DNA from: Phormidesmis priestleyi BC1401
GTDB taxonomy: Bacteria > Cyanobacteriota > Cyanobacteriia > Leptolyngbyales > Leptolyngbyaceae
Length of the DNA stretch: 64,000 nt
NCBI RefSeq assembly: GCF_001650195.1
Contig: NZ_LXYR01000001.1
Location: 10,358-74,357 of the forward strand
Reading direction: 5' to 3'
The position numbers were made by a program, and so were the translations under genes. The notes under the pieces are model-generated. The model had not been told where the DNA came from. It saw only the letters and a list, made by a program, of their open reading frames with translations, and made no database searches. Below are positions 5,724 through 63,477 of the stretch, piece after piece. Position 1 is the first letter of the stretch. Each line of letters begins with the position of its first letter.

Positions 5724-7106
5724 CTAGGTTTCCGTCTCAGACGATCGCGCCTTCATTCGCCATCCATGCTTCACGACCTGACGCGCACGAGCGATCGCTA
5801 AACAGTCATTAGGCACGTCTTCGCTAATCGTTGAGCCTGCGGCGATCGTCACATCTTCGCCAATAGTGAGCGGTGCAATTAACGCATTATTGACTCCGGT
5901 TTTGCTGCGATCGCCGATCGTGGTGCGATGCTTCTTCACGCCATCATAATTGGCGGTGATCGTGCCGCCGCCGATATTGACTTGAGTTCCGATCGTGGCA
6001 TCTCCCAAATAAGACAAGTGAGACGCATTGGTGCGATCGCCCAAGGTGGAATTTTTCAACTCGACAAAGTTACCAATTCGACAACCTGCGCCAACTTCGG
6101 CATGACCGCGCAGATGGGCATAAGGTCCAATGCGAGAGCCAGACTTGACAATGCTATCGGTCACAACCGAAAAGAGAACGGTGACATTCTCCCCGATCTG
6201 ACTATTTTCGATCAAGCTGCCCGGTCCGATCCGGCTCTTGGTTTGAATCAGGGTGTTGCCCCGAAGATGAGTCTGCGGCTCAATAACTACATCGGCTTCG
6301 AGGGTTACGGTATCTTCGATCGTGATGCTATCCGGGTCAATCAGCGTCACCCCTTGCGCCATCCAATCATTTTTAATGCGCGTTTGCAAAATCCCGTAAG
6401 CGGTGGCGAGTTGCTGGCGATCGTTGATGCCCAAAATCTCTTGATGATCGTCAACATCCACCGTCATGACTGGACTCAGATAATTCACGGCATCAGTCAA
6501 ATAATATTCTTGCTGATCATTATTGCTGGTCAGATTTGGCAACACCGCCTCTAAATCCTGCCATCGGAAGCAATAAATTCCAGCGTTCACACGACGATTT
6601 TGCTTCTGAGCAGGACTGCAATCGCGGTCTTCCACAATCTGAGTCAGAATATTATTGCCATCGCAAAACACTCGTCCATATCCTTTAGGGTTGAGGATTT
6701 GAGCCGTTAGAATCGTTGCTGCATTGTTGTGTTCTCGATGCGTCTCTAGCAATCGTTGCAGCGTAGCAGGTCGTAATAACGGAACGTCACCATTCAAAAC
6801 CAGCAAACTTCCTTCAAACCCTTTTAAATGCGGCAGCAACTGTTGAATCGCGTGTCCGGTGCCCAACTGCTCGGTCTGTTCAACAAACTCTACGTCGGCA
6901 TAACGATCGCCCTGACGGGTCATCTCCTCTTTGACAAGTTCGCCCCGATAGCCAACAATCACCAACCGCCGTAGAGGATTGATCTCAGTCGCTCCGTCTA
7001 AGACTCGCTCAACCAGCGATCGGCTTCCCAAGCAGTGCAGGACTTTTGGCAAGTCCGATTTCATCCGCGTCCCTCGCCCAGCCGCCAAGATTGCTACCGC
7101 TACCAT
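5724..7106 (-). CDS. glmU: Bifunctional UDP-GlcNAc pyrophosphorylase / GlcN-1-P acetyltransferase GlmU
   Basis: 460 aa, the usual length. The N-terminal uridyltransferase domain (about 1-230) opens with [14 protein letters not shown], the nucleotide-binding loop, followed by KVLHCLG. The C-terminal left-handed beta-helix (about 250-450) shows hexapeptide repeats and the acetyltransferase segment ASHLSYLGD with [11 protein letters not shown]. It makes UDP-N-acetylglucosamine from glucosamine-1-phosphate, acetyl-CoA and UTP for peptidoglycan and lipopolysaccharide in the cytoplasm. It stands alone on the minus strand. The ATG at 7106 leaves the family N-terminus intact. The 208-aa opposite-strand frame inside it is a shadow. 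Confidence 0.97.
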
Positions 7107-41726: not shown

Positions 41727-42311
41727 TTAGCTGATGGTCACAATCCAGGTGCCGATGTCACGCAGCAGGGGCACGTCTCCAGGAGACAAAACTCGGCAGT
41801 TGAAGTAGAACATACCGCCATTGCTGGGGTTTTTGACATTTGAGAAGATTAGCTCCACATTCGACCCTGCGGGAACGGGATCTTTGGGGAAAACCTCAAT
41901 CACATAGTTTTCTTTTTCCCACTTGACTTCTTGAATGGCAACTTTTTTATCGTTAACCATCAGTTCGACACTTTTGGGATCGAAGGTGCCTTTGTAATAA
42001 TCGGGATAGTCGATCGAGAACTGAGCCACTGCAACCTTCATTCTTTTGCGCTCAATTCTCATCCGGTAGCGATCCCAGGAGTTGGTGTTGCCGCCAAAGT
42101 CTAGCCGATAGTTGAGCTGGTTTTCGCTCTTCACACCACTAAAGAGGGTGAGACCCGGCAAGCCTTGAGAGAATGCCACGATCGGAAGCCCTGCGACAAG
42201 GCAGCCTGCGATCGCTAAGGTTGACACAACACGTCGCATCGAAAATCCTCTGAGCAGCATAGGCGTTTGACCTGAAGAACTAGGGTAAGTGGTTGAGTAA
42301 ACAGACTTCAT
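41727..42311 (-). CDS. DUF2808 secreted protein
   Basis: 194 aa; shorter starts at 42260 (MLLRGFS) or 42239 (MRRVVSTLAIAG) may be used. It has a signal peptide (VVSTLAIAGCLVAGLPIVAFS). The mature part begins QGLPGLTLFSGVKSENQLNYRLD and shows VSIDYPDYY-like AQFSIDYPDYYKGTFD, VFPKDPVPAGSNVELIF and NPSNGGMFYF, all DUF2808 hallmarks. This is a cyanobacterial periplasmic family of unknown function. Confidence 0.85.
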   Translation of the reverse strand: MKSVYSTTYPSSSGQTPMLLRGFSMRRVVSTLAIAGCLVAGLPIVAFSQGLPGLTLFSGVKSENQLNYRLDFGGNTNSWDRYRMRIERKRMKVAVAQFSIDYPDYYKGTFDPKSVELMVNDKKVAIQEVKWEKENYVIEVFPKDPVPAGSNVELIFSNVKNPSNGGMFYFNCRVLSPGDVPLLRDIGTWIVTIS

Positions 42312-42497
42312 TAGTATTGACCTTATCAGGAAACCAGGTGAAATGACTCAGTGAGGAGCGACTGGTGGTAGAAGGTGACGCGTTAATCGATTAAATTGTG
42401 CCTTGATATAAAAAAGCCTCTAGAAATTGATTGAGCGATCCTTATACAACCACTCAAATGCGAGGGCTGAAAACACAACTCAACTAGCGATTCACAG

Positions 42498-42560
42498 GGT
42501 AATGTTAACTTAAATTAAGTTATGAACGTCGTTCATAACTTAATTTAAGTTAACATTACC
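42498..42560. promoter_or_regulatory. 63-bp perfect palindrome, intergenic
   Basis: Arms of 31 bp (42498-42528 and 42530-42560) are perfect reverse complements around a single T at 42529. Each arm itself contains a shorter palindrome of TAACTTAA/TTAAGTTA, giving four half-sites. It lies between the starts of the divergent DUF2808 and sugar transporter genes. It may be a regulator's operator, an RNA hairpin, or a cruciform-forming element. Confidence 0.75.
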
Positions 42561-42576
42561 TCTCATTTTCTACCCC

Positions 42577-42601
42577 TTAAAGAAGATGAGAGCTTCTTTA
42601 A
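42577..42601. promoter_or_regulatory. 9-bp hairpin just downstream of the palindrome
   Basis: TTAAAGAAG (42577-42585) and CTTCTTTAA (42593-42601) with a 7-nt loop, perfect. A separate TCTCAT...ATGAGA pair overlaps it (42561-42591). It lies in the leader of the ABC transporter operon. Confidence 0.45.
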
Positions 42602-42762
42602 CCGATTCATATGATAAATTTTGCAGTAGTTGAGACGGAAACATTCCGAGCAACTTGATGTAATTATTTTCAATGAATCACGAGTTGAATTTAACATATC
42701 CTAAAACCTTAAAGCTTTAAGGAAAAGGCGATCCCCAAATTACGATTGTCTCAATATTGACT

Positions 42763-44070
42763 ATGGAAATTTTAGAATTAATCAGAAGAAATCTGACCCA
42801 GTTATGGCGACGATCGCGTTGGTTTCGCAGCCTTAGTTTAGTCACTGCTTTTACATTGGGTGCGCTGCTGATTGTGCTGCCCGTGCGATCGCAGCCCGTC
42901 GTTTTAACCTTCTTGATGAATGCCCCGGAAGTGCCTCCGTTTCGACCGATTATTCGAGAATTTGAGCAAAAAAATCCGGGTATTCGCATCAATATGGTTG
43001 AAGGTCCAAATGCCTCAAACTTGATTGAGGATTTGAATACTTCTTCGTTTCTGTTAGGCGGGTCTCCCTACGATCTGATCAATATGGATGTCACCTGGGT
43101 GCCCAAATTTGCGGCAGCAGGGTGGTTAAAAGATTTGACGGGGCTGATTTCTCAAGAGGAACTCTCGCAGTTTTTGCCGGGTGATATTAATGGTAGTCGC
43201 TATCAAGACAAACTCTATCGGCTTCCCTGGCGCACTGATGCGGCGGTTCTGTATTATCGGACTGATTTGCTCGATCGGGCAGGGCTAAAACCTCCCGAAA
43301 CGTTTGCTGATTTGATGCAAACCTCTAAAACTTTGCAGGACAAAAAAGCTGTCCAGTGGGGCTATGTTTGGCAAGGACGACAATATGAAGGCATTTCTGC
43401 AATGTTTGTCGAAGTGCTGCAAGGCAATGGCGGCTTTTGGGTTGACCCTCAAACAAAGCAAGTGGGCTTAGACCAACTGAAGGCGATCGCGGCTCTCAAA
43501 TTCCTGCAAAGTACTATTCAACAAAATGTCTCACCGGGTGGGGTCGTCAACTATATGGAAGATGATGCCCGTCGTCTGTTTCAAAGTGGCAACACCGCCT
43601 TTATGCGAAATTGGCCGTATGCGTGGAAATTACTGAACGCGGACGATTCTCCAGTCAAGGGGAAGGTGGGCATTCAGACGATGATTCACGCACCTGGTTT
43701 AAGCAGTGCCTCTTGTTTGGGGGGCTGGGGTTGGGGCATTGCTAGCACAAGCCAGCATCCTCAAGAAGCTTGGAAAGCCGTGCAGTTTTTTACCAGTCTC
43801 GAAACTCAAAAGAAGCTGATTTTGGGGACGGGTTATTTGCCAAGTCGTCGCGCTCTTTATGACGATCGAGACTTGCTAGCAAAATACGATTTCTTTCCCC
43901 TGGTGCTGAAAGCGTTAGAAACTCCAGCGTTGCGCCCTCCGATCGCTCAATATGCTCAGGCATCTGACATTTTGCAACGCTATCTCAGCGCTGCCCTATC
44001 GGGACGAATCAATGCAGAAGATGCGATGCAGTCAGCCGCAAAAGAAACTCGAACGCTGCTAGGAGCCTAG
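42763..44070 (+). CDS. ABC transporter sugar-binding protein (family 1 SBP)
   Basis: About 435 aa from the ATG at 42763 (a TTG lies two codons upstream). A signal anchor (SLVTAFTLGALLIVLPVRSQ) is followed by family 1 SBP features: FMNAPEVPPFRPIIREFEQKN-like LTFLMNAPEVPPF, GSPYDLINMDVTWVPKFAAAG, RLPWRTDAAVLYYRTDLL and GGWGWGI. It delivers an oligosaccharide, perhaps a compatible solute such as trehalose or sucrose; the substrate is not decided. It is the first gene of a four-gene operon. Confidence 0.9.
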   Translation: MEILELIRRNLTQLWRRSRWFRSLSLVTAFTLGALLIVLPVRSQPVVLTFLMNAPEVPPFRPIIREFEQKNPGIRINMVEGPNASNLIEDLNTSSFLLGGSPYDLINMDVTWVPKFAAAGWLKDLTGLISQEELSQFLPGDINGSRYQDKLYRLPWRTDAAVLYYRTDLLDRAGLKPPETFADLMQTSKTLQDKKAVQWGYVWQGRQYEGISAMFVEVLQGNGGFWVDPQTKQVGLDQLKAIAALKFLQSTIQQNVSPGGVVNYMEDDARRLFQSGNTAFMRNWPYAWKLLNADDSPVKGKVGIQTMIHAPGLSSASCLGGWGWGIASTSQHPQEAWKAVQFFTSLETQKKLILGTGYLPSRRALYDDRDLLAKYDFFPLVLKALETPALRPPIAQYAQASDILQRYLSAALSGRINAEDAMQSAAKETRTLLGA

Positions 44071-44079
44071 TTTGCCATT

Positions 44080-44982
44080 ATGGAAGATGTCATTCATCAA
44101 CGAGAGCGACGAACGGGGTGGGCGCTTACGATTCCGGCGTTGTTGATGTTAGCGCTGGTGTTTGTTTACCCGATCGTCAGAGCCTTTTGGCAAAGCTTTT
44201 TTACCCAAAACTTAGGAACTCAACTTCAGTCAGAGTTTTCAGGATTTGCGAATCTTGCCCGCATGGCGCAAGATGGGCGATTTTGGCAAAGTTTGGGGAA
44301 CTCAGCGGTTTTTACGGTCTTCTCAGTGCTGCTGGAGTTTATTTTAGGGTTGGGCATCGCCCTGGTATTGAACCAGACGTTTAAGGGGCGAGGCATTGTT
44401 CGGACGATCGCGATTCTTCCCTGGGCGTTGCCAACTGCGTTAATTGCCCTGGCGTGGACGTGGATTTTTAATGATCAATACGGCGTTGTTAACGACATTC
44501 TGCTGCGATTGGGAATTATTCAAACTGGAATTAACTGGTTAGGGAATCCGACGTTAGCAATGGTGTCTGTGATTGTGGCAGATGTTTGGAAGACAACTCC
44601 TTTCATCAGCATTCTATTGTTAGCCGGATTGCAATCGATTCCGAGTGACTTATATGAGGCTCAAGCGATCGACGGTGCAACTCCCTGGCAGAGTTTCCAA
44701 TAAATCACGCTGCCGTTGCTATTACCGCAAATCGTGATCGCGCTGCTGTTTCGGTTTGCCCAAGCCTTCGGAATTTTTGACCTGATCGCAGTGATGACAG
44801 GTGGCGGTCCCGGTGGCGCGACTGAGACGGTATCGCTATATATCTATGCGACGATTATGCGTTATTTAGATTTTGGCTATGGAGCTGCTCTAGTGACGGT
44901 GACTTTTTTGCTGTTGGTGCTAATCGTTGCGATCGCGAGTTATTTTCTAAATCGGTCTAGAGCTACATCGGGAAGTGTTTAA
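44080..44982 (+). pseudogene. Sugar ABC permease (MalF/UgpA type) with an in-frame stop
   Basis: The reading frame is uninterrupted apart from one TAA at 44701-44703: upstream 207 codons, downstream 93 codons, same frame. The stop falls inside the EAA loop: YEAQAIDGATPWQSFQ-stop-ITLPLLLPQI, where a normal permease has no stop. A single C-to-T change from CAA or CGA would explain it. The remaining sequence is intact (six helices, GGGPGGATET), so the mutation is recent or is a sequencing error. Without this subunit the transporter would not work. Confidence 0.85.
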
Positions 44983-45895: not shown

Positions 45896-47035
45896 ATGGA
45901 TAAACAACTTGAGCTTGTCGATTTGCGTAAAGCCTATACTCCGCAGATCATTCCTGTTAAAGACGTGAGCCTGACAGTTAAGCAGGGAGAATTTCTGACG
46001 CTTTTGGGTCCGTCGGGCTGTGGCAAGTCAACGATTTTGCGAATGATTGCGGGGTTAGAGCAGCCGACCAGCGGCAAAATTTTGATTGACGGGCGAGATG
46101 TAAGTCGATTGGGTCCGGGCGATCGCAACATTGCAATGGTGTTTCAAAGCTATGCGCTCTACCCGCACATGACGGTGCGTGAAAACATCGCCTCTGGGTT
46201 GAAACTCAGAAAAACGCCGCCCGGAGAAATCCAGCAGCGCATTCACGAGGTCGCCGATTTTCTGGGCTTGCATGAGTTGATGAATCGCAAACCCGGACAG
46301 CTATCGGGAGGACAACGCCAACGAGTCGCTGTGGCTCGAACGCTAGTGCGTCGCCCCGATGTGTTTCTGCTAGACGAGCCGCTGAGTAATTTGGATGCTC
46401 TGCTGAGAGAACACGTCCGGGCAGAACTCAAGCAACTATTTCAGTCACAAAATGCCCCAGTGGTGTATGTCACTCATGACCAAACTGAAGCGATGACACT
46501 CTCGACTAAAGTGGCGCTGCTCAATAACGGCTTTTTGCAGCAGCTAGACACTCCAGAGGGCATTTATGGCAATCCTGCTAATCAGTTTGTGGCTGGGTTT
46601 ATTGGCAGCCCCCAGATGAATTTTTTGCGCGTTTTGTGTGATGGAAAAAGCGCGATCGTCGGCAATAGTCTCATCCCCCTGCCTCACGGAGTCACTGCCC
46701 CTACAGAAGTGGTGTTAGGAATCCGCCCAGAACACGTTCATCTGGCAAATTCTGAGAACGAACCCACGATTCACGGTCAGGTGTTCTTAGTCGAAAACTT
46801 GGGGATGCACAATCTGGTGAGCATCCAGGTTGACAGCGTTCAAGAACCAATGAAGCTGCGAGCGTTGATGGGAATGGGCGAGCGGGTTAGCAGCGGTAGC
46901 TCTGTGAAATTGGGGTTTTCGATCGAGTCGATTCACTGGTTTGATGCGACAACGGGCGATCGCTTGTCGGGTGCCCCTGCAAAAGCGGGCGTTGCTAAAG
47001 CCAGATATGAATTGTCAGATTTGCCCTCACCCTAG
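45896..47035 (+). CDS. Sugar ABC transporter ATPase (UgpC/MalK type), C-terminus from a MITE
   Basis: 379 aa from the ATG at 45896 (a GTG lies two codons before). Walker A is GPSGCGKST, the signature LSGGQRQRVAVART and Walker B VFLLDEPLSNLD; a C-terminal TOBE-type regulatory domain follows (PEHVHLANSENE). The last 15 residues, GVAKARYELSDLPSP (365-379), and the stop are encoded by the MITE inserted at 46988. Function is likely retained because the insertion comes after the regulatory domain. Confidence 0.9.
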   Translation: MDKQLELVDLRKAYTPQIIPVKDVSLTVKQGEFLTLLGPSGCGKSTILRMIAGLEQPTSGKILIDGRDVSRLGPGDRNIAMVFQSYALYPHMTVRENIASGLKLRKTPPGEIQQRIHEVADFLGLHELMNRKPGQLSGGQRQRVAVARTLVRRPDVFLLDEPLSNLDALLREHVRAELKQLFQSQNAPVVYVTHDQTEAMTLSTKVALLNNGFLQQLDTPEGIYGNPANQFVAGFIGSPQMNFLRVLCDGKSAIVGNSLIPLPHGVTAPTEVVLGIRPEHVHLANSENEPTIHGQVFLVENLGMHNLVSIQVDSVQEPMKLRALMGMGERVSSGSSVKLGFSIESIHWFDATTGDRLSGAPAKAGVAKARYELSDLPSP

Positions 47036-47154
47036 CCCTCTCCTTTTGGGAGAGGGGACAGGATTTCTGGCTCCTTTCTCCCCAGGGAGAGGGGTTAGCG
47101 AGGGCTTGCCCCACTTCGTGAGGAGGGGAATTTATACTTGCATTCAGCAACGCC
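46988..47154. mobile_element. MITE copy A, with 8-bp target duplication
   Basis: Ends are GGCGTTGCT and AGCAACGCC; the direct repeats CAAAAGCG flank it exactly (46980-46987 and 47155-47162). The interior has the family's palindromic blocks (CCCTCACCCTAGCCCTCTC, and CCCCACTTCGTGAGGAGGG). It is non-autonomous: no coding capacity, and it overlaps the 3' end of the transporter ATPase gene. Confidence 0.9.
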
Positions 47155-47318
47155 CAAAAGCGATGGTAGAGAGTTAGCAAACCATTCCTTTGTGAGCGCC
47201 AAGCATCAAAGAACGCGTCTAATGTTTGGCTCTTAAGTTTTGCCTGAGTGCCGTGATAGTTTCTCAGCTATTTTTACTGGGTTGACATAGGATTGTTTTT
47301 GACCTTAAGCGATTTGCC

Positions 47319-52746: not shown

Positions 52747-53113
52747 GATCGATTTCAACATCGCCTAAACCTGCTAAACCCGCCACCCCGATCGTCGTTC
52801 TCGCAGACCGACGGTGACGATCAAAGTAGGACGCATAGATTTCGTTTACGGCTTGCAGATACCGCAAATCAGTAATAAAAACCCGTGACATAACGACCCG
52901 ATCGAACCCTGTCCCGGCGTGAGTCAGGACAAGTTTGAGATTCTCCATCACTTGGGTAGTTTGCTGCTCGATCGTGCCTATCCTCATGTCACCTGTTTCA
53001 GGATCTTCAGCTAACTGTCCGGTGACGAACAGCAAATCGCCCGCCCGAACAGCATGACAAAACGGACCAAGAGGAGGAAGGATTTGATCAGGCAGCGTAA
53101 TGTATTCCAGCAT
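52724..53113 (-). CDS. RidA family protein
   Basis: 129 aa from the ATG at 53113 (MLEYITLPDQ); a start at 53128 would add five residues. GDLLFVTGQLAEDPETGDM, RVFITDLRYL and ARTTIGVAGL with VEIDLIVY keep the arginine and glutamate of the RidA active site. RidA removes reactive enamine/imine intermediates. It converges on the Uma2 pseudogene. Confidence 0.88.
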   Translation of the reverse strand: MLEYITLPDQILPPLGPFCHAVRAGDLLFVTGQLAEDPETGDMRIGTIEQQTTQVMENLKLVLTHAGTGFDRVVMSRVFITDLRYLQAVNEIYASYFDRHRRSARTTIGVAGLAGLGDVEIDLIVYCGD

Positions 53114-53166
53114 GAGTTTTATCAACAATAAGCAGTCATCTTAAACCATCGTGAGAAGCAAGACTG

Positions 53167-53332
53167 GCGTTGCTGAATGCAGATGTGAAATGCCCTCCTC
53201 ACGAAGTGGGGCGAAGCCCTCGCCAACCCTTCTCCCCAGGGAGAAGGGAGACAAAACTCTTGTCCCCTCTCCCTGGGGAGAGGGCTAGGGTGAGGGTAAA
53301 ATCTGTGCTTCATAGATCGATTCAGCAGCGCC
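53167..53332. mobile_element. MITE copy B, with 8-bp target duplication
   Basis: Ends are GGCGTTGCTGAAT and ATTCAGCAGCGCC (12 of 13 pair). Flanks GCAAGACT and GCAAAACT match 7 of 8. It has the same palindromic interior as copy A. It lies between the RidA gene and rfbB. Confidence 0.85.
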
Positions 53333-63309: not shown

Positions 63310-63477
63310 GGCATTGCTGAATGCAAGTATGAAATGCCCTCCTCACGAAGTGGGGCGAAGCCCTCGCCAACCCTTCTCCCCAAGGAGAAGGGAGCCAGAA
63401 ATCCTGTCCCCTCTCCTTTTGGGAGAGGGCTAGGGTGAGGGCGAATCTGACAATTCATAGCTAGGTTCAGCAACGCC
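63310..63477. mobile_element. MITE copy C, with imperfect 8-bp target duplication
   Basis: Ends are GGCATTGCTGAA and TTCAGCAACGCC. Flanks GAGTTAAT and GAATTAAC match 6 of 8. Same interior as copies A and B, in the opposite orientation to A. It lies upstream of the phytochrome start, in the presumed promoter region, and before the next plus-strand gene. Confidence 0.85.

Follow-up and report, generated by a model that had tools for sequence, protein, structure and literature searches.

The window analyzed here, a 64,000-nucleotide stretch of the Phormidesmis priestleyi BC1401 genome, contains a 63-bp perfect palindrome that is real in the assembly, rare and lineage-specific, and that looks like a mutation scar, which explains it best, and not like a shared control switch. 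With moderate confidence we read it as a recent, lineage-specific inverted duplication produced by a fold-back (template-switch) event at or beside a derived junction, where a sugar-uptake operon with an inherited promoter block appears to have been joined to a DUF2808 gene.

Structure, rarity and distribution of the palindrome

The palindrome occupies positions 42498–42560 and consists of two 31-base arms that are 100% complementary across one central T, as read from the sequence and recovered by a repeat search, which confirms the structure described in the first-pass annotation. The nested half-site copies reported in the same annotation are also real: four copies of TAACTTAA/TTAAGTTA can be read from the sequence, spaced 10-20-10 bp from center to center. 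The parts of the palindrome are:

42498–42528, + strand: left arm, interpreted as newly made and inverted; complementarity to the right arm 100%
42529, no strand: central single base T, from the sequence and the repeat search
42530–42560, + strand: right arm, interpreted as inherited; the distal box of the promoter block in relatives falls under its outer half
42505–42513, + strand: nested copy 1, TTAACTTAA, center 42509, with TAACTTAA at 42506–42513
42515–42522, + strand: nested copy 2, TTAAGTTA, center 42519, read from the sequence
42536–42543, + strand: nested copy 3, TAACTTAA, center 42539, read from the sequence
42545–42553, + strand: nested copy 4, TTAAGTTAA, center 42549, with TTAAGTTA at 42545–42552; in register with the AACTTAA of relatives

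The palindrome is not a chance occurrence. For arms of 31 and a loop of 1 in 5.55 Mb, the number expected by chance is 1.3e-12 at an assumed 47% G+C and 1.0e-11 at the local composition. An inverted-repeat scan (arms of at least 11, loop of at most 10) of 1,634,357 of the 5,551,896 bases of the genome (29.4%, window included) returned 65 perfect inverted repeats, among which the arms of the palindrome are the longest at 31, followed by arms of 22, 21 and three of 20. The palindrome scan of the same-genus genome G001 covered a 121,234-base sample. Arms of this length are notable since perfect inverted repeats with arms of at least 13 and spacers of at most 8 are reportedly scarce in E. coli (PMC6060812), and a survey of 1,565 bacterial genomes is described as dealing with lengths of 6 to 30 only (PMC10434271). 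The palindrome has a G+C content of 25%. The predicted RNA fold of 42480–42600 has a z-score of −11.95, and the predicted DNA folds of the two strands of 42490–42568 have z-scores of −14.18 and −14.06. The palindrome can in principle form a cruciform.

In its own genome the palindrome is present as a single copy. The first-pass annotation had proposed a search of other genomes, and this search, of 58 genomes with the own genome included, found the full-length palindrome in none of the 57 relatives; the best other match by E-value in this set extends over ~31 bases at 84%. Plasmids and phages yielded pieces of the palindrome, covering at most 41% and at most 38% of the query, respectively, and the full length was found in neither. 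These short matches in relatives, plasmids and phages were treated as chance. A 21-base piece gave no match in a scan of a contig collection (genome_contigs), and palindromes with arms over 10 were found in none of 23 regions upstream of the orthologous operon in relatives. Among the matches listed for open-access literature on cyanobacterial palindromes and small dispersed repeats, the sequence is not described. A partial match on contig C81 of the same genome (19 bases, 89%) was likewise treated as probable chance. This site, TTAACTTAATATAAGTT (L002, 1501–1520), resembles the conserved distal box described below and precedes, by ~450 bases, a pair of genes that by eye we take to be phycobilisome-like.

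A conserved promoter block and the likely inherited arm

Relatives carry, upstream of the orthologous binding-protein gene, a block composed of AACTTAAYA, 19 bases and YCTTRRAGRAGATGAG, with no palindrome at that place; to our knowledge this block has no published name. The alignment comprised 11 upstream regions, that of the window and those of 10 relatives with a clear block, and 13 more distant upstream regions were scanned for palindromes only. Because the search pattern AASTTAAYA-N19-YCTTRRAGRAGATGAG, whose S covers the G of the window, was drawn up with both the window and the relatives in view, its matches there do not count as independent. At 0 mismatches it occurs a single time in each of 10 of 41 family genomes, a count that includes the own genome. 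Allowing 3 mismatches added one further genome (G011), and the reversed control at up to 3 mismatches was found in 3 of the 41. The exact 15-mer CTTAAAGAAGATGAG occurs once each in 7 of 42 family genomes, own included, and its reversed control once in 1 of 42. Seven stretches in genome_contigs match the block pattern. Six of these lie upstream of the orthologous binding-protein gene and come from genomes already counted, adding no new cases, and the seventh, in a deltaproteobacterial record with no binding-protein gene nearby, is probably a chance match. The window is like its relatives in having AASTTAAYA-N19-YCTTRRAGRAGATGAG upstream of the orthologous binding-protein gene, whereas it differs from them in being the only genome of those compared with a palindrome over the distal box and a G in the core of that box. 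Downstream of the palindrome the same promoter contains:

42573–42588, + strand: proximal conserved dyad, CATCTTNNNNAAGATG-like in several relatives, its left half degenerate here
42577–42601, + strand: second inverted repeat, TTAAAGAAG...CTTCTTTAA, with arms of 9 and a loop of 7
42610–42615, + strand: -10-like TATGAT with 9 of 12 consensus matches, downstream of the palindrome

The repeats found in the other 23 upstream regions do not include this second inverted repeat. Shuffled sequences contain 1.7 such -10-like sites on average, which makes the hexamer weak alone, and TATGAT is found at the same place in several relatives. By arithmetic from this predicted -10, the proximal dyad would be centered near -41.5 and the distal box would lie ~31.5 bp further upstream. 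The conserved block together with the -10-like hexamer extends over 42545–42615 in the window and is also seen upstream of the orthologous genes (L022–L025 and L081–L086).

The right arm sits where the distal TTAASTTAA box of the block belongs. We built a position matrix from the 10 relatives and placed the right arm on it at the orthologous offset over 21 columns, where it scored 4.3, the best value of all start positions from 42001 to 43000; this score is reached by 0.00022 of window positions (~14, with a best of 8.8 at 6874) and by 0.00175 of letter shuffles. On the same 21-column matrix the relatives, which built it and whose own scores were not leave-one-out, score 17.7–29.7, so that the match of the right arm is weak, and the core of the in-register box is G here versus C in 10 of 10 relatives; both observations are counted against a fold-back origin. 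A second test used 26 columns (-40 to -15), 4000 window positions and 4000 shuffled palindromes. In this test the sequence in place scored 0.6 (reached by 0.0005 of window positions and 0.00325 of shuffled palindromes), and four left-arm reconstructions, made by placing the left arm at the offset and varying whether the central T or the arm's inner copy was included, scored −7.5, −18.2, −28.6 and −42.9. The best of these, the left arm plus T, ranks within the upper 1.25% of window positions and the upper 3.9% of shuffles, which is again counted against the fold-back reading, and all of these arm-match probabilities are uncorrected for the several comparisons tried. The alternatives in which the left arm is older, or in which the inner copy came first, scored worse on the 26 columns than the right arm in place and were rejected. 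The matrix comparisons make the right arm, despite its weak match, the likelier inherited copy.

Gene neighborhood and a probable derived junction

The palindrome lies between divergent open reading frames, a DUF2808 gene on the minus strand and a sugar ABC binding-protein gene on the plus strand, so its earlier placement between divergent genes holds. The operon to the right of the palindrome is of the maltose/trehalose-type sugar ABC class. The relevant features are:

41727–42311, − strand: DUF2808 protein gene; close to and divergent from pntA in four relatives
42423–42497, no strand: stretch left of the palindrome, at the end of clear sister homology; putative site of the derived junction, which may instead fall within the left arm
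42757–44070, + strand: sugar ABC substrate-binding protein (SBP_bac_1), operon gene 1; best PDB match MalE3, 6dtq
44080–44982, + strand: MalF-like permease gene, operon gene 2, with an in-frame stop after codon 207

The permease frame is open over 301 codons in 9 of 9 relatives examined, and the stop in this genome may be either recent decay or a sequencing error.

The DUF2808 protein of G001 is 95% identical to that of the window, and its gene is divergent from pntA at a distance of 0.4 kb; the two genes are likewise divergent and 0.5–1.1 kb apart in G006, G008 and G021. In G003 and G019 the two genes are on separate contigs, which means that the DUF2808-pntA neighborhood is not universal and is counted against the fold-back reading. 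We did not find pntA, which encodes the transhydrogenase alpha subunit, in the genome under study (G000, rated 99.99% complete), whereas it is present in 7 of 7 relatives searched. When upstream neighborhoods were compared, pairs of relatives shared genes, and the left side of the window matched only the DUF2808 region of G001. Because DUF2808 lies by pntA in relatives, pntA is absent here and the left side matches G001 alone, the junction between the DUF2808 gene and the sugar operon is most likely derived in this genome, as judged from gene order. The best match to the binding protein in G001 is 46% identical and located elsewhere in that genome. As this sister species lacks the sugar operon, the genus offers no pre-event sequence for comparison.

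Homology to G001 detected by blastn stops at 42422, and three pieces of 42423–42497 aligned to G001 with scores no better than those of shuffles. A permissive gapped alignment to G001 wanders through the palindrome as far as 42572. The junction point was not found, and 42459–42497 has no traceable source in these comparisons; this and the permissive alignment are counted against the fold-back reading. Divergence from the sister species is 17% in the DUF2808 region, and arms that dated from the sister split and were free to change would have stayed without a mismatch over 31 positions with a probability of ~0.003. Since the arms are perfect against this divergence, the palindrome is probably younger than the sister split, or has been kept perfect by selection or by repeated template switching.

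Origin of the palindrome and competing explanations

In the proposed mechanism, the upstream end of the operon's inherited promoter block, now the right arm, would have served as template for an inverted copy, now the left arm, with copying at or beside the site where the sugar operon and the DUF2808 gene came together. In this scheme, a 3' end in or adjoining the block would have folded back on itself, been extended by polymerase, and then been joined to, or returned to, the DUF2808-side DNA. We infer the fold-back step and its tie to the rearrangement from the exact 31+1+31 architecture in a single copy with no full-length counterpart in the 57 relatives, plasmids or phages, from the conserved block, the weak match of the right arm at its offset and the derived DUF2808-sugar operon neighborhood, and from the perfection of the arms despite 17% sister divergence together with the second inverted repeat in the same promoter. 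Of the ideas in the first-pass annotation, a recent inverted duplication is the better supported, given the missing full-length copies in relatives and an in-register right arm that fits the block better than the left-arm versions do.

Template switching is reported to perfect inverted repeats in E. coli (PMC7202029) and has been proposed to generate new hairpins over evolutionary time (PMC8794818). The E. coli quasipalindrome mutations, as described in PMC7202029, resemble the present case in using the nascent strand as template and in having perfect arms and a very short loop, but a few mismatches are corrected there, whereas a whole 31-base arm is seemingly new here and lies near a junction. 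The hairpins discussed in PMC8794818 are similarly new, perfect and found in one lineage while absent from relatives; they concern microRNA and rRNA genes, in contrast to cyanobacterial promoter DNA that has no close pre-event outgroup. Fold-back priming is also the proposed origin of inverted duplications reported in PMC10622511 and PMC3907307, which are large and come from yeast and human, whereas the copy described here is 31 bp long and bacterial.

The palindrome could instead be a lineage-specific cooperative operator, in which four TTAASTTAA-like boxes spaced 10-20-10 bp, upstream of the second conserved dyad and the -10-like hexamer, would serve as binding sites on one helical face for a regulator of the sugar operon. 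We consider this unlikely. It would fit the single AACTTAA box that relatives keep at a constant distance of 19 bases from the proximal block, the in-register box here being one of four helically phased copies, and it would fit the position of the palindrome upstream of the -10-like hexamer. The palindrome itself, however, is not conserved, at full length in 0 of 57 relatives or as arms over 10 in 0 of 23 upstream regions, the nesting of inverted copies could by itself account for the phasing of the boxes, and an in-frame stop interrupts the permease gene of the operon. Searches of the own genome for further operator-like sites did not rise above control: exact matches to the nested 17-mer are confined to the palindrome, and allowing up to 2 mismatches adds 2 other places, the same number as for its reversed control, and the central 15-mer occurs at 17 places, this one included, versus 21 for its control. 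By these comparisons the palindrome is not a conserved operator. The earlier suggestion of a regulator site for the sugar transporter is thus right to the extent that the right arm covers the distal portion of a block that relatives conserve upstream of the operon, and it falters on the lack of conservation of the palindrome (0 of 23), on the 17-mer and 15-mer counts and on the permease stop. The resemblance of the palindrome center, ATGAACGTCGTTCAT, to TetR-like sites suggested a further reading, which found no support in the 15-mer counts (17 places versus 21). In Synechocystis, ggtBCD is reported to be under LexA control (PMC4759255), which prompted the idea of a LexA link. It is conceivable, though in our estimate improbable, that a fold-back error turned one conserved box into a phased array of four, which would thereby have become a cooperative operator of new origin or a cruciform switch sensitive to supercoiling; if true, template switching would have given rise, within one or two steps, to a cis-regulatory element for an operon that had newly arrived at this place.

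An assembly or amplification artifact, in the form of an inverted chimera, is rather unlikely in our view: the draft genome comprises 213 contigs and the in-frame stop in the same operon could also be an error, but the palindrome lies inside a 275,582-base contig, at base 52855, and the scanned 29% of the genome contains no other palindrome with arms over 22, where a general artifact might give more. A mobile palindromic repeat of the MITE, REP or cyanobacterial dispersed type is very improbable even though the genome has MITE-like inverted-repeat elements, one of them at 46987–47155. The palindrome is single copy with no full-length relatives found elsewhere, no flanking direct repeat was seen at it by eye, and its right arm overlies what resembles inherited promoter sequence; the mobile repeat was rejected on its single genomic copy. 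The MITE-like element at 46987–47155 is itself ~169 bp long, overlaps the 3' end of an ATPase gene, to which it seems to supply a different protein tail, and is one of a family: a 436-kb sample of this genome contains many relatives of it, partial or full, with two more at 53166–53332 and 63310–63477. A transcription terminator or structured RNA is scarcely credible. The palindrome folds very stably as RNA, yet 42250–42800 contains no terminator-like site (a weak test, as shuffles give only 0.3), the palindrome is low in G+C (25%) and without a T run, it is placed between two gene starts and not at a gene end, and its 10 Rfam matches, 9 of 10 rows being microRNA precursors, are all below gathering scores. 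The missing terminator-like site and the sub-threshold Rfam matches led us to reject both.

If the fold-back reading is right, the locus would exemplify, for bacteria, the birth of a long perfect palindrome within a conserved promoter close to a new chromosomal junction, and would offer a place for testing whether template switching reshapes regulatory DNA. Compared with the palindrome, the conserved promoter block may prove the more lastingly useful finding, as it points to a putative regulator of the sugar-uptake operon in Myxacorys and Leptolyngbya-like cyanobacteria.
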